From: Caldilineales bacterium
GTDB taxonomy: Bacteria > Chloroflexota > Anaerolineae > J102
Direction of reading: 5' to 3'
Assembly: GCA_024102915.1 (NCBI GenBank)
Contig: JAGFJG010000157.1
Location: forward strand, 62,001-126,000
DNA length: 64,000 bases
Made by a program: the position numbers and the translations under genes. Under the pieces are notes generated by a model. The model had not been told where the DNA came from and searched no databases. It saw nothing but the letters and a program-made list of their open reading frames with translations. Positions within the stretch are counted from its first letter, which is position 1. Each line of letters opens with the position of its first letter. Of this stretch, positions 15,353 through 43,467 are shown in pieces.

Positions 15353-15422
15353 GGCTTTTTCTCCGCGACAAGTATGATCTAAACCCTTGCTTGCCGCAAT
15401 TCTTCCCTCTACAATGGGTCTC

Positions 15423-17252
15423 ATGAAACTGCGTGAAGTCATTCTGGTCTTGATGATCTTGCTAATGGCCGCTTGCGGAAACGACGATGTCGAGCCGACG
15501 GCGATACCGGCTGAGCCCGTGGCGGCTGCGCAGGTTCAACCGACATCCGCGGCAAGTCCGACGCCAGCGCCAACCGCAATTCAGGCGATTGCCGATACGC
15601 CTTCGCCTCAGCCCACGCCTCCACCCGCCCCGACTCGCCTGGCAACGACCAGGCCCCCCGCGACCCCAACCCTCAGCCCTGCGCCCGATACGGCCTACCC
15701 CTCGGCCGTCGTCTTGGAGACGGCCAACCTGCGGGCGGGGCCAGGGCTGGAGTACCCCGTCATCGGCCAGGTAAATGAGGGCCAGGAGGTGCAGGTCAGG
15801 GCACGCACACAGTACGGAAGCTGGATGCAGTTGGAGATGGAGGGCGAAGGCCAGGTGTGGGTTGCCGATTTTCTTTTGGATTTACCCGCCGGTATTGACT
15901 TTCCTATCTCCGAAGACTTCGCCGCACCGCCTCCGCCGCCAACGCCGGGCGACGCCGTCCATCTCGGCCAAACCACAGTCTCCATCTCCACCTATCCCTG
16001 GCGGCAGTTCACCAGCCCGGCCTACGATCCCGTCTACGATTGGGAATATCTGCAATTCGACCGCGCGGCCTACGAAGCGGCCAATCCCCAACCCAGCCCG
16101 CAAACCTACGCCCTGCAAACCCTGGACAACCGCTGGCTGCATCTCAGCCTGATGCCGGAATTGGGCGGGCGGCTTTTCCAGATGGTGTTCAAAGCCACCG
16201 GCAACAACGAGCTTTACCAGAATCCGGTGATCAAGCCGTCGCCGTGGGGGCCGGGCGCTAATGGCAACGGCTGGCTGGCGGCTGGCGGCATCGAATGGGG
16301 ATTGCCCGTATCCGAGCATGGTTATACCTGGAATGAAACCTGGGGATACATCACCACGCCCGGCGACCAGGAGGCCAGCATCACCGTTTTCGACCAGGGT
16401 CAGGATCGATTGCACCTCAGTGTGGATGCGGGCATGCAGCCGGATAGCGCCGCTTTCACGCTAGACTACAGGCTGGAAAATCGCGGCGTCAGGCCGGTGG
16501 ACGCCAACTTCTGGAGCAATGCTATGCTCGCGCCTGGCCCGGCCAACCGTGTTGGCTCCGAACTGCGGTTTCTTTATCCCAGCAGCCAGATGCGCGTGCA
16601 CTCGACCGGCGACGGCGACCTGCCCGGTCCGGGAGGGCCCTTCGCCTGGCCGATGAACAATGGTCGGGACATCAGCCGCCTGGGCACATGGCAACGCTGG
16701 CTGGGATTCTTCGCCGCTTCCCAAGGCCAGAGCGCCTGGGCCGCCGTCTACGACGAAGCCGCTGACGAAGGCGTCGTCCGCATCTTCTCGCCAGTGAAAA
16801 CGCCCGGACTCAAAGGCTTCGGCCTGGGTTGGAGCGACCCGATTCCCGCCAACCAATACACCGATGGCGATTCCAGCTACGTCGAGATGCAAGGCGGCAT
16901 CTCCCCTGATTTCGACACCGCCCGCACAATGGCTCCGGACGAACTGCTTTCCTGGCGGGAAATCTGGTATCCCGTCGCTGGTATCGGCGGCATCAGCAAT
17001 GCCGATGCCAACGGAGCCGTGCATGTGACGTCGACTGATGGCGGCTGGCGGCTGCGGATTTTCCCGACGCGATCGATGCGGGGTGAACTTGTCGTTCTCA
17101 GCGGCGGCAGCGAAATCCACCGCCAGGAGATCGACACGGATCCAGGGCGGCCATTGGATGTGATCCTGTCCGGGCCTGATCAGCCGACCGGATTTCGCAT
17201 CACCCTGGCCGATGGCGGCGAATGGGCCATGAATAGCCTTTCCCGACCATGA
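15423..17252 (+). CDS. Lipoprotein with SH3b domain and DUF5107-like (mutarotase-fold) domain
   Basis: A 609-residue predicted lipoprotein: hydrophobic signal with lipobox MAAC at Cys18, then a Pro/Thr/Ala linker (about 20-90), one bacterial SH3 domain (ETANLRAGPGLEYPVIGQV...SWMQLE...GQVWVADFL, about 95-155) and a large C-terminal domain. The latter resembles DUF5107/galactose-mutarotase-like beta-sandwich proteins (LMPELGGRLFQMVFKATGNNE, GGIEWGLPVSEHG). The layout suggests a surface carbohydrate- or peptidoglycan-associated protein. ATG 15414, three codons upstream in frame, is an alternative start. The stop overlaps the next start by four bases (ATGA), so translation is coupled. Confidence 0.78.
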   Translation: MKLREVILVLMILLMAACGNDDVEPTAIPAEPVAAAQVQPTSAASPTPAPTAIQAIADTPSPQPTPPPAPTRLATTRPPATPTLSPAPDTAYPSAVVLETANLRAGPGLEYPVIGQVNEGQEVQVRARTQYGSWMQLEMEGEGQVWVADFLLDLPAGIDFPISEDFAAPPPPPTPGDAVHLGQTTVSISTYPWRQFTSPAYDPVYDWEYLQFDRAAYEAANPQPSPQTYALQTLDNRWLHLSLMPELGGRLFQMVFKATGNNELYQNPVIKPSPWGPGANGNGWLAAGGIEWGLPVSEHGYTWNETWGYITTPGDQEASITVFDQGQDRLHLSVDAGMQPDSAAFTLDYRLENRGVRPVDANFWSNAMLAPGPANRVGSELRFLYPSSQMRVHSTGDGDLPGPGGPFAWPMNNGRDISRLGTWQRWLGFFAASQGQSAWAAVYDEAADEGVVRIFSPVKTPGLKGFGLGWSDPIPANQYTDGDSSYVEMQGGISPDFDTARTMAPDELLSWREIWYPVAGIGGISNADANGAVHVTSTDGGWRLRIFPTRSMRGELVVLSGGSEIHRQEIDTDPGRPLDVILSGPDQPTGFRITLADGGEWAMNSLSRP

Positions 17253-35846: not shown

Positions 35847-36713
35847 TCAGACGCTCACCCGTTTCCGCAACCACACAGTCGCCGCCAACATCCCCGCGAA
35901 CAGGACGACCAGACCGATCTGCAACGGTTGCACACGAGTCGTTGTCGCGGGCGTCTCTTGCGCTGGCGGCATGGCGGCGGCTTGATCCGCTTGCGCGGGC
36001 TCGCTTGCGACCAGAGCGACTTCGGCGGCAGCGTCGGACGGTTCCTCCATCTGCTTGGCCGCTACTGGCTCCTCCTCCTCGGCTGTCGCAGCCCCGCCTG
36101 CCTGACTAAACAGGCGCGGTTCTTCGATCTGCTCGGCGGCTGCACTATCTTCGATGATTCGCTCTGCCGAGGGCGCTTCGGTGATCACCTCACCACTTTC
36201 CATGGCCATTGCCACCGCGGAGGCTTCCTCCTCCATGGCGCTCTCGGCAACGGGCTGCTCGCTTTCCACAATCATCGTCTCGGCGGCAGGGGCAAGCGGC
36301 GCGGCTGCTATGTCGAATGTTGCCGACTCGGCGGCTGGAGCCGATTGCTGCCCGGAGAGGTAGGGAAGGGCGAATGTGAGTAACAGGACAACCGCCACTG
36401 CCGCCGTCGCCAGGGGCATGATCTTGTTCAGGGGCCCCAAAAGCCGTTGCCAGAAGCTGGGGCCTTTCACGCCGCGTACGCGCCCCCCAGAAACCAGCAC
36501 ATCCTGTTCGGACAGGACGAAGGCGTGAGGCAGGGTCAGGCTGGGCGCCTGTTTGAACAGATCGACGGTGTATTTCAGCGTCGTCATGCGCTGCTGGGCG
36601 CTGGCATCAGCGGTCAGAGCTTGCTCAATCCGCACGCGTTCATCCGCTGTCAGTTGCCCGTCGATGTAGGCTGACAGCAGATCGTCGCTGATGGGATTGG
36701 GGAGAGAGGACAT
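35847..36713 (-). CDS. Membrane anti-sigma factor candidate
   Basis: A 288-residue protein encoded directly after an ECF sigma factor. The N-terminus (SDDLLSAYIDGQLTADERVRIEQALTAD) has the helical pattern of anti-sigma domains, but the zinc-binding HxxxCxxC motif is missing. Two hydrophobic helices are present (about 99-118 and 264-281), separated by about 145 residues rich in Ala, Glu and Pro, a low-complexity acidic stretch. Usual anti-sigma factors have one transmembrane helix, so this topology puts both ends inside and an acidic loop outside. Its role in holding the sigma factor is inferred from position and N-terminal pattern. Confidence 0.72.
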   Translation of the reverse strand: MSSLPNPISDDLLSAYIDGQLTADERVRIEQALTADASAQQRMTTLKYTVDLFKQAPSLTLPHAFVLSEQDVLVSGGRVRGVKGPSFWQRLLGPLNKIMPLATAAVAVVLLLTFALPYLSGQQSAPAAESATFDIAAAPLAPAAETMIVESEQPVAESAMEEEASAVAMAMESGEVITEAPSAERIIEDSAAAEQIEEPRLFSQAGGAATAEEEEPVAAKQMEEPSDAAAEVALVASEPAQADQAAAMPPAQETPATTTRVQPLQIGLVVLFAGMLAATVWLRKRVSV

Positions 36714-36797: not shown

Positions 36798-37397
36798 TTA
36801 GGGGAGAGACTCGCTCTTAAGACGGTAGGTGGGCGGCAAAAGTTCCTGGTGTTGTTGCAGTAAGTCGCGCAGCCTGGTTCGGGCGCGGCTCAATCGCGAT
36901 TTGACAGTGCCCAAAGCAATGCCCATCGCCTCAGCCGTTTCTTCATAGGAAAAGCCCTGGACATCGGTGAGCACAACCACGGCACGCTGATCATCGGGCA
37001 GTTGGCCTATCGCCCATTGCAGCAGCTTGTTCAGTTCGGCCCGCTCCGCCGCTTCGTCAGGTCGCTCGCCCGATTCGACCAATCGCCAACTGTGCTCCGG
37101 ATCGACAAGTACATCATCGATATTATCGGTCGGTTTGCGTTTGCGCGCCCGCAAATAGTCATAACAAGTGTTGGTCACGATGCGCAACAGCCAGGGGCGG
37201 AACGAATCGCCGCGAAAGCTGTCCAGCGCCTTGTAAGCCTTGATGAAGGAATCTTGCGTCACGTCCGACGCGGCCTCGCCATCCCCTACGATGCGATAGG
37301 CGACGTTGTAGGCCAGGCTTTGATATTGCAGCACCAGTTGATTGAATGCTGGCAGGTCGCCTTTGCGGGCGGCCTCGATCAGACGTGAGTCATCCAT
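36798..37397 (-). CDS. RNA polymerase ECF sigma factor
   Basis: A 199-residue sigma-70 family protein with only regions 2 and 4. Region 2 reads FNQLVLQYQSLAYNVAYRIVGDGEAASDVTQDSFIKAYKAL and FRPWLLRIVTNTCYDYLR; region 4 reads LPDDQRAVVVLTDVQGFSYEETAEAMGIALGTVKSRLSRARTRLRDLL. It should steer polymerase to stress- or surface-related promoters and be held by the membrane protein encoded 84 bp downstream. The start ATG at 37397 gives the normal family N-terminus. Confidence 0.95.
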   Translation of the reverse strand: MDDSRLIEAARKGDLPAFNQLVLQYQSLAYNVAYRIVGDGEAASDVTQDSFIKAYKALDSFRGDSFRPWLLRIVTNTCYDYLRARKRKPTDNIDDVLVDPEHSWRLVESGERPDEAAERAELNKLLQWAIGQLPDDQRAVVVLTDVQGFSYEETAEAMGIALGTVKSRLSRARTRLRDLLQQHQELLPPTYRLKSESLP

Positions 37398-37553: not shown

Positions 37554-37582
37554 TTGACGAGCTATGATGCGTTGGCTATACT
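37554..37582 (+). promoter_or_regulatory. Promoter of tRNA-Leu
   Basis: TTGACG at 37554-37559, 17-base spacer, TATACT at 37577-37582. The tRNA begins 10 bases after the -10, so the transcript starts just before the mature 5' end. Confidence 0.88.
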
Positions 37583-37591
37583 CGCAGCTAT

Positions 37592-37676
37592 GCCGAAGTG
37601 GCGGAATAGGCAGACGCGACGGTCTCAAACACCGTTGGAGATTAGCTCCATGTGGGTTCAAGTCCCACCTTCGGCA
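37592..37676 (+). tRNA. tRNA-Leu (anticodon CAA)
   Basis: An 85-base class II tRNA. Acceptor GCCGAAG pairs with CTTCGGC, the D arm carries GGCGGAAT.AGGCAGACGC, and the anticodon stem ACGGT/ACCGT frames loop CTCAAAC with anticodon CAA. A long variable arm (GGAGATTAGCTCC) and a T arm GTGGGTTCAAGTCCCAC follow. The discriminator is A, as expected for leucine. The 3' CCA is not encoded (TCA follows). Confidence 0.97.
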
Positions 37677-37756
37677 TCACGATACAGCCGCTAGACAGCC
37701 TAGCGCAGTCGAATTTCTGCCGCGAATTATAGCAACAACTCACGAAGTGCGCCAGA

Positions 37757-37805
37757 GGGAAAAGCTGCAATAGATACATCACTATTGCGCCTTTCCCCTT
37801 TTTTT
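37757..37805 (+). terminator. Intrinsic terminator behind tRNA-Leu
   Basis: A hairpin with GCAATAG/CTATTGC as inner stem and GGGAAAAG/CCTTTCCC as outer stem, with two mismatches, is followed by a run of at least six T. It lies 80 bases after the tRNA. Confidence 0.85.
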
Positions 37806-37924
37806 CGTCTTCGATTGGTTGATTGCTGACGAAAACGCCAGAATGACGACAATTCGCCATTGTTTCAGTCGTTTTGCATGCTCGAAACAAGCGCGAAAAT
37901 CCCAGTATCAAGGTAATTTCCATC

Positions 37925-39202
37925 ATGAAACGACGTCGCAACCGGGTCTGGCTCCTCGCAGTTGCCGGCATCCTGGCCGGTTTTCTTCTGGGACTTTGGG
38001 TCGGATATCAATTCATTCCCGGACTTTCAAATGCCAGCATCAGCGAACTGAGCGCTGAGCAGCAGGACGAATTCGTCAAGCTGGTGGCATTGGGCTATGC
38101 CCAGACGCAGGACGTTGGCCAGGCCGAGCGCCAGCTCGCCAGCCTCGAAGCGCCCAATTCGGGCCAGTTCGTCGCCAGCGTCACCGAGCGAACCATCGCC
38201 GGCGGCGGCGATGCCAGGACGATTGGGGCATTAGCCCAACTGGCGGTCGCCCTGGGCGTACAAAATGCCACGCTCACGGCCTATCTGCTGACGGCCACGC
38301 CGCTTCCCACGCCCACACTGGTTCCGCCCACGCCGACCATGGAATCATGGCCGACGGCCACCGCAGCCGACCCTACGCCGACGTCGGAACCGCCCACATC
38401 CACGCCCGAACCTGAAACGTCCACCCCGACCCCTGAGCCATCCACTGCCACGCCTGAATCGGGGCCGGCCGTCATTGCCGACAGCCCCATCAATGTCCGT
38501 GGCGGGCCAGGAACCGGATTTGCCGTTGTGGGCAGCCTGACGGGAGGCGAGCGAGCGCCTATCCTGGGTCGCACAAACGATAGCTCCTGGTGGCAGATCG
38601 AACTGGCGGATGGCACGGAAGGCTGGGTGTTGGCCGAGATTGTCTCGACGAGCGGGAACACGGACGGCATCGCCATCGCTGCCAATATCCCCACCCCGCC
38701 GCCCGCGCCAACGACTGCGCCGCGGCCCACCGCCGCCCCTACGAACCCGCCCGCTCCCGCTGGCCCCGCCTTCCGCCTGGTGGAACGGCGACTGTGGACA
38801 GTAGAAGAGACCGGCGGACATCTGGCAGGCACATCCGTGAACTGCGGCGAAAAACACGAACTTCAGATCAAAATATTGGATGCGAGCGGCGCCCCGCTCA
38901 ATGGCGTCACCATTGGCAGCATCTACAATAACGAAGAGCACGTCAGCGGCGAAAAAGGCCCCGGCATGGCTGAATTCATCCTCTACCCGCCCGGCAATGG
39001 CGTCCGGGTCAAGCGGGATGTCAACGGCAGCGACGCCTCCAGCGACTCGGCTGAAGCGCCGACCGACCCGCGAGCTATCTCCTACGGCGAATTGATCGGG
39101 GCGCGTTTCTGTCAGAATGACGCAGATTGCGCCCGCTTCGTGTCTCTGCCCGGCTGTTACGGCCACTACACCTGGTCCGCCACCTTCCAGCGAAATTACT
39201 AA
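37925..39202 (+). CDS. Single-TM surface protein with SH3b domain and shared C-terminal domain (first of three)
   Basis: A 425-residue protein. A basic start (MKRRRNR) and one transmembrane helix (8-30) are followed by a helical segment (about 38-118), a Pro/Thr linker (120-175), one bacterial SH3 domain (PINVRGGPGTGFAVVGSL...SWWQIELADGTEGWVLAEI, about 180-245), a second linker and a C-terminal domain of about 140 residues with several Cys. The latter contains DASGAPLNGVTIGSIYNNEEH and ends YTWSATFQRNY. Residues after the helix should be extracytoplasmic. The gene at 39274 is a tandem paralogue and the C-terminal domain recurs in the protein at 40798. AAGGTAAT precedes the ATG. Function unknown. 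Confidence 0.82.
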   Translation: MKRRRNRVWLLAVAGILAGFLLGLWVGYQFIPGLSNASISELSAEQQDEFVKLVALGYAQTQDVGQAERQLASLEAPNSGQFVASVTERTIAGGGDARTIGALAQLAVALGVQNATLTAYLLTATPLPTPTLVPPTPTMESWPTATAADPTPTSEPPTSTPEPETSTPTPEPSTATPESGPAVIADSPINVRGGPGTGFAVVGSLTGGERAPILGRTNDSSWWQIELADGTEGWVLAEIVSTSGNTDGIAIAANIPTPPPAPTTAPRPTAAPTNPPAPAGPAFRLVERRLWTVEETGGHLAGTSVNCGEKHELQIKILDASGAPLNGVTIGSIYNNEEHVSGEKGPGMAEFILYPPGNGVRVKRDVNGSDASSDSAEAPTDPRAISYGELIGARFCQNDADCARFVSLPGCYGHYTWSATFQRNY

Positions 39203-39273: not shown

Positions 39274-40533
39274 ATGAAACGACAATTCGACCGAACCTGG
39301 CTTATCGCCATCGTCAGCATCTTCGCAGGATTGATGATCGGCTTCATCGTCGGCTCCCAATTGGTTCCGGAATTGATGTCCGCCGCGGTGAGCGACCTGA
39401 ACGTCGATCAGCAGGATGAATACGTGACGCTGATCGCCCTGGCCTATTCCCAGACGAATGATTTGGAAGAGGCGCGCCGCCAGTTGGCGGAGTTGCGCAC
39501 GCCGAATGCCGGGCAATACGTGGCCAGCGTGGCCGAAAGCCAGATTGCCCGTGGCGATAATCCCCAGACCATCAGGGCGCTGGCGGTTTTGGCGAACGCG
39601 CTGGGGGTGAGGAACAACTCGCTCACCAGCTATTTGGCGACAGCCACGCCGATGTCCACATCCACGCCATTGCCGACCGCCACGCCAACTTCCACTCCGA
39701 TTGAACCGACGGCGACGCCCGAACCGCCCAGCCCGACGCCTTCACCCACTTCCGAGCCGCCCACACCCACGCCCGAACTGGCGCCATCCGTCATATCGGA
39801 AAGCCCCGTCAATGTGCGCAGCGGTCCCGGCGTCGGATTTGGCGTTGCGGGCGGGTTGGGTGCAGGTGAAGCCGCGCCCATCGTTGGTCGAACCAGCGAT
39901 GGTTCCTGGTGGCAGATCGAATTGACGGATGGGACATTAGGCTGGGTGCTGGTCGAGATCGTCACCACCATCGGCGACACCGGCGGCATTGCCGTCGCCA
40001 GCAACATCCCCACCCCGCCGCCCGCGATAACCCGACCGCCCGTGGCCGCCGCCCCGCCCACGGCCACGCCAGCGCCAAAATCAACCACGCCCTATACCAT
40101 CACCAACGTGCGGCTGCGCGGCCCCGGCGAGGCTTCCCAAAGTTGCGCTGGCGGCGATCATTATGTGTGGGTGACGGTGATGGACGCCGCGGGGAACCCG
40201 ATCGACGGCGTCAGAGTGCAGGATGTGTGGACGCAGCAGGTCTTCGTCACCGGCGCTCAGGGCAAGGGACAGGGTCGGGCCGAGGTCTTGATCTGGCAGG
40301 ATGGCGGGGCGGAATTGCAGGTCGTGGACGACGGCAACAATGCGATCAGCCCGCGCTCGCCCGGCATGCCCTCGAATCTGCCGCCGTGGGAATTATTCCA
40401 GGCGGCGGGCTATTGCGGATGCAAGCCCTATCCCGATGTAGATAGCTGTCGCGCTGGCTGGCAGGCGCGCGATTTCGCCTACTTCCCGAACTCGCATTAC
40501 GTGTACGAAATCACCTTTCAGCGCACAAACTGA
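39274..40533 (+). CDS. Single-TM surface protein with SH3b domain and shared C-terminal domain (second of three)
   Basis: A 419-residue paralogue of the preceding protein with the same order: transmembrane helix (9-30), helical segment (SDLNVDQQDEYVTLIALAYSQ and so on), Pro/Thr linker, SH3b domain (PVNVRSGPGVGFGVAGGL...SWWQIELTDGTLGWVLVEI) and a C-terminal domain with DAAGNPIDGVRVQDVW, ending YVYEITFQRTN. The N-terminal and SH3b parts are clearly similar, while the C-terminal domains have diverged more and carry different Cys patterns (CAGGDH, YCGCKPYPDVDSC). The gene lies 12 bases after a terminator, so the start of its transcript is unclear. Function unknown. Confidence 0.82.
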   Translation: MKRQFDRTWLIAIVSIFAGLMIGFIVGSQLVPELMSAAVSDLNVDQQDEYVTLIALAYSQTNDLEEARRQLAELRTPNAGQYVASVAESQIARGDNPQTIRALAVLANALGVRNNSLTSYLATATPMSTSTPLPTATPTSTPIEPTATPEPPSPTPSPTSEPPTPTPELAPSVISESPVNVRSGPGVGFGVAGGLGAGEAAPIVGRTSDGSWWQIELTDGTLGWVLVEIVTTIGDTGGIAVASNIPTPPPAITRPPVAAAPPTATPAPKSTTPYTITNVRLRGPGEASQSCAGGDHYVWVTVMDAAGNPIDGVRVQDVWTQQVFVTGAQGKGQGRAEVLIWQDGGAELQVVDDGNNAISPRSPGMPSNLPPWELFQAAGYCGCKPYPDVDSCRAGWQARDFAYFPNSHYVYEITFQRTN

Positions 40534-40797: not shown

Positions 40798-43467
40798 GTG
40801 TCTACCGACTTACTCAAGCGCGCCTCCCTCTTCGCAGACCTGACCGATGAAGAGCGAGCGAGCGTCGCCGAAAGACTTCACTTGCAGCATTTTGCCGCCA
40901 GTGAAGTCATCATCAGCGAAGACTCAGCCAGCGAGGCGCTATTTCTAGTTGAACATGGCGGCGTCCGGCTCAATTACGGGCCGGTCACCCTGGCGACTCT
41001 GGGCGCAGGGGCCGTGTTTGGCGAATCCGACGTATTCTTGGGGCGCAGGCGCAGCGTTAGCGCTGTGGCGACGGGCGAAACCGATGTGTGGGCGCTCTCG
41101 CGGCGTGATCTGGAACAAATCGTCCACGATAATCCGGGCATCGGCGTCAAGCTGTCGATCAGCTTTGGCTCCCGCTTGGTGCAGATTCAGCGATATTTGG
41201 TGGATGAGCGTTTACGCTCCGCCAGCGGTTTCGAAGCGCTGACCCCCGACGACCTCGAACAGATCGCCTCCCGCCTCGACCTGGAGACTTTCCGCCCAGG
41301 TCGAGCCATTTTCCGGGCTGGCGACGCCCCCGAACGCCTGCATGTGATCGAAAGCGGACAAGTCAGCGTCGAACGCGACGGCGCAATCGTTGACGTCGCT
41401 GCTGGTGAAATCCTCGGCCTGATGGCCCTGCTCACCGAAAAGCCCTACGCCGAATCCGCCCTGGCCCAAACGCAAACCCTGACCTGGACGCTATCGCACG
41501 AAAGTCTGACGGAATTGACCGAAGTCGATTCCGAAATCCTGGCCCGGCTCAGCCGGGGACTACGAGCGCCGCTGGACGATGCCGATGAGGCCCTGGCTAT
41601 CGAACGGTTGCGAGCGCTGCCGATCTTCAGCACCCTGGATGATGAAATCCTCAAAGCTGCGGCAGCCAAATTGCTCTTGCAACACGCTCCGGCTGGCGAA
41701 ATCGTCTACAAAGAAGCCAGCCCTGGCGACGCCCTCTATTTGATCGACAGCGGGCGCATTGAGATCGTCAGCAGCGCCAGCCGCCGTGGCGAAGTGCTCG
41801 CTCGGCTCAGTGCTGGCGGCTTCTTCGGCGAAATGGCATTGCTCACCGGCAAAAGCCGCACCACCGGCGCCCGCGCAGTCGATGACGCCAATCTCTGGGT
41901 GCTCTACCGCAGTGATTTCGAAGACCTGGTCACAACCTATCCTGCGCTTGGCCAGGCGCTCACCCGCACGCTGAGCGAACGTTTGGGCCAATCCGGCGAT
42001 ACCTTCGGTGAAAAACACCTGCGGCGATTGATGCTCTTCAGCGGACTCACCGCCGATCAACTCAGCTACGTCGCCGACCAGCTTATTCCTGCGCGTTATC
42101 GGGCCGGTGAAGTGGTCTACAACGAAGGTGATACCGGCGACCGCATCTACCTGATCGAATCCGGTTTGGTGCGTCTGGCGAATGCCAAGGAAGAATCGGC
42201 GGAACTGGGCGATGGCGAGTTCTTCGGTGAGGCTTCCTTGCTGACCGGGGACGCCCATCGTGTGACCGCGGTGGCGGTCACCGAAGTCGAATGTTGGGCG
42301 CTGACCCGTGACGATTTCGAAGCCCTGATGCTGAAATATCCGGTGCTCGGATTGAACCTCAGCCGCGCCCTCGCTGCCCGCACGCAGTTGCGCAGCGCGC
42401 CCGCCGCACCGGTCGCCGCGACTCCGGCTCCAGTCCCTGCCGCGCAAGAGCGGTCAGTCGTGCCTGCGGCGATCCCGGCAGCGGCTATGGCCGTAGCGGC
42501 GGCAACGCCCAAACGCAAGGCGGTGCCCGTAGTCAAGAAGAAGCGCGGGCCGGTTGATGCTGTCGTGATGTGGTATGGCGGCTTATCGAATGGCGCGAAA
42601 TTACGCCTGGTTTTGCTCCTGCTGTTGGCGGTCTTCCTGATCGCCATCTCATTGCCGGCAACGATGGTCAAAGCGCTACAGACATCGGATGTCATGCCTT
42701 CGGCTGAAGAAGGCCCTGTGATTGCCCTGGCTTCGGTCAGTGACAGTTTGGCTCCGGCTATCGCATTTGCCGCCGGCGGTGAAGAGACGCCGGTTCCGGT
42801 CGTAGCCGATGCAGCCCTGGCAGCGAAAGCGGCTCCGGTCAACGACAACGGCGCTGCGGCGACCCCGACCTATACGCCGCCGCCCACCGAGACGCCTCTC
42901 CCGACCGACACGCCCACGACCACGCCCACTCCAACCGACACGCCCACCCCGACCCCGACCGACACGCCCACAGTGACCCCCACGGATACGCCGCCGCCCA
43001 CCGCCACGCCTCGACCTGTAGCAAGAGTGGTGGCGGCAGCAGAGCCTACGGACACACCAGCCCCTGCAGTTCAGTATAGTCTGATCGAAGTACGGCGGTT
43101 GAACCCATGCGAAAATCGCGGCAAACATGACATCTATGTCCGCATCGTCGATGCCAACGGGCTTGGCGTCAACGGCGTCAGCATCGTCCAGGCGGTCAAC
43201 GGTTCGGGCGAGATCGTCGACCGCCGGGTTACGGAAGCCAAAGATTCCTGGCTGATGGGCAAAGAAGATGGCCGCACCGATTTCGCCATGTATAAATTCG
43301 GCCAGTACATGGTCTTCATCTCCAACGATGGCTCGACGCCGGCCAGCACCGACTTCGCCACAGCGCTGCACAGCGGCTTTACCGATGAAGCGGAATGCGA
43401 TCAAGGCGGGGGCGGCAACACCCTCTTCCATAACTCCTTCTCTGTGGTCTTCCGCAAGAACTTCTAA
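40798..43467 (+). CDS. Transmembrane protein with four cyclic-nucleotide-binding-type domains and the shared C-terminal surface domain
   Basis: An 889-residue protein. Four tandem cNMP-binding (CRP/Crp-Fnr-type) domains fill residues 5-130, 143-255, 272-398 and 409-530. Phosphate-binding cassettes are best kept in the third (GFFGEMALLTGKSRTTGARA) and fourth (EFFGEASLLTGDAHRVTAVA), recognisable in the first (VFGESDVFLGRRRSVSA) and degenerate in the second (ILGLMALLTEKPYAESA). An Ala/Pro linker leads to one transmembrane helix (602-626), then a Thr/Pro linker (680-750) and a C-terminal domain (757-889) like those of the two upstream proteins, ending FHNSFSVVFRKNF. There is no DNA-binding, kinase or cyclase part. 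It should connect a cytoplasmic nucleotide signal with an outside domain. GTG start with GGAGG 12 bases upstream. Confidence 0.85.
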   Translation: MSTDLLKRASLFADLTDEERASVAERLHLQHFAASEVIISEDSASEALFLVEHGGVRLNYGPVTLATLGAGAVFGESDVFLGRRRSVSAVATGETDVWALSRRDLEQIVHDNPGIGVKLSISFGSRLVQIQRYLVDERLRSASGFEALTPDDLEQIASRLDLETFRPGRAIFRAGDAPERLHVIESGQVSVERDGAIVDVAAGEILGLMALLTEKPYAESALAQTQTLTWTLSHESLTELTEVDSEILARLSRGLRAPLDDADEALAIERLRALPIFSTLDDEILKAAAAKLLLQHAPAGEIVYKEASPGDALYLIDSGRIEIVSSASRRGEVLARLSAGGFFGEMALLTGKSRTTGARAVDDANLWVLYRSDFEDLVTTYPALGQALTRTLSERLGQSGDTFGEKHLRRLMLFSGLTADQLSYVADQLIPARYRAGEVVYNEGDTGDRIYLIESGLVRLANAKEESAELGDGEFFGEASLLTGDAHRVTAVAVTEVECWALTRDDFEALMLKYPVLGLNLSRALAARTQLRSAPAAPVAATPAPVPAAQERSVVPAAIPAAAMAVAAATPKRKAVPVVKKKRGPVDAVVMWYGGLSNGAKLRLVLLLLLAVFLIAISLPATMVKALQTSDVMPSAEEGPVIALASVSDSLAPAIAFAAGGEETPVPVVADAALAAKAAPVNDNGAAATPTYTPPPTETPLPTDTPTTTPTPTDTPTPTPTDTPTVTPTDTPPPTATPRPVARVVAAAEPTDTPAPAVQYSLIEVRRLNPCENRGKHDIYVRIVDANGLGVNGVSIVQAVNGSGEIVDRRVTEAKDSWLMGKEDGRTDFAMYKFGQYMVFISNDGSTPASTDFATALHSGFTDEAECDQGGGGNTLFHNSFSVVFRKNF

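Follow-up and report, generated by a model that had tools for sequence, protein, structure and literature searches.

The window, as the 64,000-nucleotide stretch of a Caldilineales genome analysed here is called, carries on its forward strand (40798-43467) a gene for a conserved and apparently undescribed bacterial protein. As a stress-type sigma factor gene usually lies next to it, the protein is a candidate for a new kind of cell-envelope regulator. The 889-residue membrane protein consists of four cyclic nucleotide-binding (CNB) domains, an Ala/Pro linker, a transmembrane (TM) helix, a Thr/Pro stalk and a CnaB/transthyretin-like outer domain. As a rule, a CNB domain acts on an effector attached to it or on a known partner; in contrast, here four such domains stand in a deeply conserved protein that has no effector and has a membrane-spanning tether, probably reaching the cell wall. 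The parts are known folds and the combination is new relative to PMC2246266 and to the literature searched: the 30 CNB families tabulated in that paper do not include the four-CNB, TM and outer-domain architecture, and no described protein of this kind was found in the open-licence literature searched, in agreement with the first-pass annotation, which knew of none. The architecture, the orthology, the conservation of the third repeat, the outer domain common to neighbouring proteins and the conserved neighbourhood all come out of computational comparison. Envelope regulation is little studied in the phylum Chloroflexota, and the protein offers both a testable question, namely what its third repeat binds, given a near-invariant site in genomes without the usual cyclases, and, in its conserved locus, a handle on an ECF sigma system.

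The open reading frame has a GTG start, with GGAGG 12 nt 5' of it. In a genome profile search the repeats (R1 to R4 in order) matched PF00027 with 57.4, 61.5, 74.3 and 82.7 bits, each above the Pfam cut-off of 27.5 bits, and the whole protein scored 255.6 bits (E 2e-77) against the same family in Pfam. Each repeat thus belongs to the CNB superfamily, and the four CRP-type domains in tandem that had been read from the letters alone are borne out. Pfam accepted nothing besides PF00027 in this protein, with no enzyme or DNA-binding domain found, and PF00027 was present in all 33 orthologs scanned, in which no second domain recurs; the earlier statement that enzyme and DNA-binding parts are lacking therefore stands. 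The absence of any HTH family among the 33 orthologs separates the protein from the CRP/FNR regulators, and the absence of a kinase domain after the four CNBs, in the protein and in the same orthologs, separates it from type III PKG.

The repeats are followed by an Ala/Pro-rich cytosolic linker (42394-42585, +) that is predicted to be disordered: an AlphaFold2 model of residues 2-640 contains four well-predicted CNB domains and the helix, with pLDDT below 50 at residues about 534-580. By hydropathy the single TM helix (42607-42663, +; residues 604-622, mean Kyte-Doolittle value 2.78) is the only strong one in the protein, and its 25-residue flanks hold six Lys/Arg before it versus one after it. 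It is found in the orthologs too, mostly with a positive-inside charge pattern, and helix, charges and conservation together predict a single-pass topology with the N-terminus inside. One helix, at 602-626, had been proposed beforehand, and its predicted membrane insertion had been named as one of the points on which the proposal could fall; hydropathy upholds it. Beyond the helix lie an extracytoplasmic Thr/Pro stalk (42676-43068, +) and the outer domain (43069-43464, +), a predicted beta sandwich with paired Cys, and here as well the anticipated stalk and Cys-containing domain were both recovered, the latter with two Cys.

The four repeats, all on the forward strand, differ in their phosphate cassettes, the columns of which were compared across the 33 orthologs. 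R1 (40885-41130; FGESDVFLGRRRSVSA) reads FGE...R in the window protein, with both Glu and Arg present, and among the orthologs Glu/Asp is kept in 33/33 and Arg in 14/33. R2 (41284-41523; LGLMALLTEKPYAESA) is degenerate, having neither Glu nor Arg here, and only 12/33 orthologs have the Glu and 0/33 the Arg. R3 (41680-41937; FGEMALLTGKSR), again FGE...R, is the sole universally conserved site, with FGE in all 33 orthologs and Arg354 in 32 of them, and a repeat tree gave it the shortest ortholog-to-ortholog distances. R4 (42094-42336; FGEASLLTGDAHRVTA) retains FGE and has His487 in the position of the phosphate Arg, the Glu being found in 31/33 orthologs and the Arg in 13/33. Both the Glu and the Arg of a cAMP/cGMP-type cassette are thus present in R1 and R3 of the window protein, not in R2 and R4, and are conserved in R3 only. 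Since the R3 cassette is near-invariant and the R4 Arg often missing, the comparison points to a single conserved site at R3, not to R3 with R4, and on these sequence grounds R3 is likely the single conserved putative ligand site; R3 and R4 as a functional pair are ruled out by the cassette columns. The first-pass annotation had seen the cassettes as graded, which holds for a good R3 and a degenerate R2, whereas R4 is not good, on account of His487, and R1, with its Glu and Arg, is better than the partial cassette it was taken for.

What the site might bind can be approached through the enzymes that the carriers encode. In the window's genome, 14 class III cyclase domains were counted. Class III cyclases were not found in the carriers G004 (97% complete), G008 (96%), G014 (100%), G036 (92%) and G038 (91%), and no class I cyclase was found in any of 61 genomes. 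G008 and G036 also lack CYTH proteins, of which probably only a minority are cyclases, and GGDEF domains are absent from nine of the ten carriers tested, G048 being the only one with them; diadenylate cyclase is present in 57 of the 61 genomes, G008 and G036 included. Carriers without detectable class I or III cyclases nevertheless keep an intact R3 site, and since several such carriers are near-complete, neither cAMP nor cGMP has to be the ligand. Barring gaps in the assemblies or cyclases of further classes, cAMP, cGMP or c-di-GMP from class I, class III, CYTH and GGDEF enzymes cannot be the general ligand. CNB domains with a ligand that is not a cyclic nucleotide do exist, as trypanosomatid PKA uses purine nucleosides (PMC10959531).

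The outer domain comprises 130 residues with a pLDDT of 91 in the predicted structure, and its likeness to CnaB/transthyretin-like sandwiches in Foldseek searches was weak but consistent (E 4e-4 to 1e-2, TM-score about 0.4-0.5). The fold search speaks against a new fold, and the description of the domain as novel is not upheld at that level. Of its two Cys, 12 C-terminal domains have both, four have neither and none has only one, which suggests a disulfide. The domain is common to the two SH3 proteins encoded upstream, with alignable C-termini: one companion (39274-40533, +) has an N-terminal TM, a Thr/Pro stalk, an SH3_3 domain and the C-terminal domain alignable with the outer domain, and the other (37874-39202, +, with a likely ATG start at about 37925) is built likewise. 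Elsewhere in the window, a further SH3_3 protein, which also has DUF5107, was observed (15387-17252, +). Relatives at two other loci (L123:1899-3869 and L124:2129-4039) combine two canonical CNBs with a TM, a Thr/Pro stalk, a LysM domain and the outer domain, and adjoin the same ECF sigma and tRNA-Leu(CAA) neighbours; the LysM-bearing homolog belongs to another class, and its LysM, a type of domain that binds peptidoglycan-type glycans, lies on the extracytoplasmic side of the helix. This placement gives independent support to the topology and to contact with the cell wall. These two-CNB relatives are possibly close to the ancestral form.

Orthologs with 31-64% identity occur in many families of the Chloroflexota class Anaerolineae. 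A whole-protein search of 61 related genomes recovered full-length or near full-length orthologs from most members of the bacterium's own family and from many other families of the class, and close orthologs in a named genome collection were likewise from Anaerolineae, Caldilineales among them; one ortholog record under a Propionibacteriaceae label is probably misbinned. The orthologs rule out a chance open reading frame or a lone oddity. In an even draw across the phylum, four of 121 genomes gave a match at 1e-50, the window's own included and two of the four outside the class, which marks the gene as typical of one section of the phylum. A repeat tree of 12 orthologs placed R1, R2, R3 and R4 each in its own supported clade, so the four-repeat layout is older than the Anaerolineae families compared, and recent repeat duplication inside the protein is ruled out. 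Among the orthologs the repeats hardly vary in length (117-133 aa each), whereas the linker between R4 and the TM is 49-269 aa long and the stalk 99-172 aa. The short forms L078 and L080 stop shortly after the TM, without an outer domain, and have an outer-domain or SH3-type gene upstream, which indicates that the two halves are separable; at least these two divergent short forms lack the R3 Arg. The ortholog in G048 (L100 / L066), on a complete MAG chromosome, has three in-frame stops (two TGA and one TAG), indicating a pseudogene or sequencing errors.

Upstream of the two companions, a tRNA-Leu(CAA) gene (37591-37678, +) lies within a conserved divergent intergenic region, beyond which are a divergent ECF sigma factor gene (36798-37397, -) and a gene for an anti-sigma factor with a zf-HC2-type N-terminus and two predicted TM segments (35847-36713, -). 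Comparison of 38 distinct loci with at least 3.5 kb of upstream flank showed the sigma gene as a divergent neighbour in 28 and on the same strand in none, usually accompanied by a recognisable anti-sigma gene; an outer-domain gene was upstream in 28/38, the tRNA was present in 30/38, and tRNA and sigma gene occurred together in 27/38. The sigma, outer-domain and CNB genes thus form a conserved locus of the Anaerolineae. The tRNA being no less conserved than the sigma gene, this linkage is strong as gene order and only suggestive as function, and the synteny by itself may go back to an old arrangement of genes that was never disturbed. A scan of the divergent intergenic regions found no recurrent ECF-type (GGAAC...) promoter upstream of the operon, and the matches to ECF-type motifs (GGAA..., spaced CGTC/GTCT-type) were discarded as a sign of sigma autoregulation, since they were scattered and the recurrent ones fell in the tRNA-Leu(CAA). 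The tRNA is preceded by a sigma70-like promoter of its own (37554-37582). In 23/29 loci it is followed within about 70 nt, on the opposite strand (in the window, within 37679-37760), by an ATTATA element, TATAAT in reverse complement and often with a TG upstream; the element is directed across the tRNA at the sigma gene, and the leader of the sigma mRNA may therefore run antisense to the tRNA. Downstream, pfkB-ParA-ParB is kept within the bacterium's own family and was not found beside the gene in the other families examined. A gene for a type I phosphodiesterase/nucleotide pyrophosphatase-family protein (PF01663; 33969-35711, -) adjoins the anti-sigma gene and was not seen at the other loci compared.

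The reading that we tentatively favour, as possible rather than probable, is that of an envelope-anchored (wall-anchored), ligand-gated regulatory scaffold. In such a scaffold R3 would be the working ligand site and the other repeats would be mainly structural or partner-binding modules, as degenerate CNBs are elsewhere. The flexible Ala/Pro linker, the membrane helix and the wall-spanning stalk would tether the CNB chain to the outer domain, which would keep the protein at the cell wall, probably jointly with the SH3 companions and their related domain. Ligand binding at R3 would alter the packing of the CNB chain, and a cytosolic partner would thereby be recruited or released at the membrane; the ECF sigma and anti-sigma genes nearby suggest a role in envelope stress or at the cell surface. 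Membrane insertion in vivo, wall contact, ligand, partner and a functional link to the sigma factor are what we infer within this reading. The lack of any cytosolic effector gene consistently linked to the locus counts against it, as do a tRNA conserved like the sigma gene, the missing recurrent ECF-type promoter and the short forms L078 and L080 without the R3 Arg. That linker and stalk vary widely in length while the repeats stay fixed makes a rigid inside-to-outside lever unlikely, and a tether fits better.

The first-pass annotation had proposed that a cyclic-nucleotide signal passes from inside to outside, with cAMP or cGMP binding the CNB chain and the TM helix changing the state of the outer domain. 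Topology and domain order agree with such a receptor, as do the canonical R3 cassette, the Glu and Arg in R1 of the window protein and the 14 class III cyclase domains of its genome, but the TM is flanked on either side by long, flexible linkers of very variable length, the short forms dispense with the outer domain and carriers without class I/III cyclases keep the same site, all of which leaves inside-out signalling very unlikely. Signalling might run in the opposite direction, with the state of the wall or a ligand sensed by the outer domain and passed on by the CNB chain to the anti-sigma factor or RNA polymerase; the divergent sigma gene at 28/38 loci, usually with its anti-sigma gene, the SH3_3 domains of the companions and the LysM of a homolog are in keeping with this. 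An outside-in sensor is nevertheless unlikely, as TM segments are already predicted in the anti-sigma factor itself, the linkers are flexible, a common promoter motif was not found, and the equally conserved tRNA means that the linkage may be passive. There is also no great likelihood that the CNB chain serves only structurally, as a protein-protein interaction module without a small-molecule ligand: the Arg is missing from R1, R2 and R4 in many or all orthologs, no class I, class III, CYTH or GGDEF enzyme was detected in the near-complete G008 and G036, and L078 and L080 lack the R3 Arg, but a structural use would not obviously need an R3 FGE and Arg354 that are almost invariant across deeply diverged families. 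It seems rather improbable that the protein is a class-wide, undescribed wall-anchored signalling receptor of the Chloroflexota whose membrane-tethered CNB scaffold is gated at R3 by a nucleotide distinct from cAMP, cGMP and c-di-GMP and works with a dedicated ECF sigma/anti-sigma pair.

Among known systems, the CNB half found both its best sequence match and its best structural match (E 3e-36) in Plasmodium PKG, an apicomplexan/protist type III PKG (PDB 5dzc, 5dyk; PMC6628679) that likewise has four CNBs per chain, one of them degenerate. PKG, however, has a C-terminal kinase and neither membrane helix nor outer domain, the opposite of the present protein on all three counts; its degenerate CNB is the third, whereas here R3 is the best kept, and the structures match domain by domain (TM-score 0.24) while differing in overall arrangement. 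The PKA regulatory subunits (PDB 1ne4, 3of1, 6rsx), strong matches in sequence and structure and next after Plasmodium PKG in the latter, resemble the protein in having tandem CNBs without an enzyme and act by partner binding and release, but they are eukaryotic, with two CNBs, no TM and a known kinase partner, as against four CNBs and a TM in a bacterial protein. Bacterial CRP/FNR proteins and the CNB families of PMC2246266 share the CNB module, the bacterial consensus (GEMALLDGEPRSATVVA) resembling R3; where these have HTH, channel, kinase, CBS or other effector parts, the present protein has instead the TM and outer domain. The CnaB domains of Gram-positive pilins and adhesins and the transthyretin-like domains (PDB 2x5p, 8bdw, 3kpt) have a beta-sandwich topology and an extracellular location in common with the outer domain as predicted; this likeness is weak, and the outer domain differs in its Cys pair, CnaB domains being marked by a Lys-Asn/Asp isopeptide bond with Glu/Asp, and matches no Pfam family.

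Other tandem-CNB proteins were encountered in the course of the searches. On contig C43 of the window's genome, a membrane protein with three CNB domains, two bPH_2 (bacterial PH) domains and at least three predicted TM helices is encoded at L084:7378-9807. A Nitrospirae protein combines two CNBs with a rhodanese domain (L137:7001-8077), and similar tandem-CNB proteins occur in the adjoining open reading frames and at several other Nitrospirae loci.
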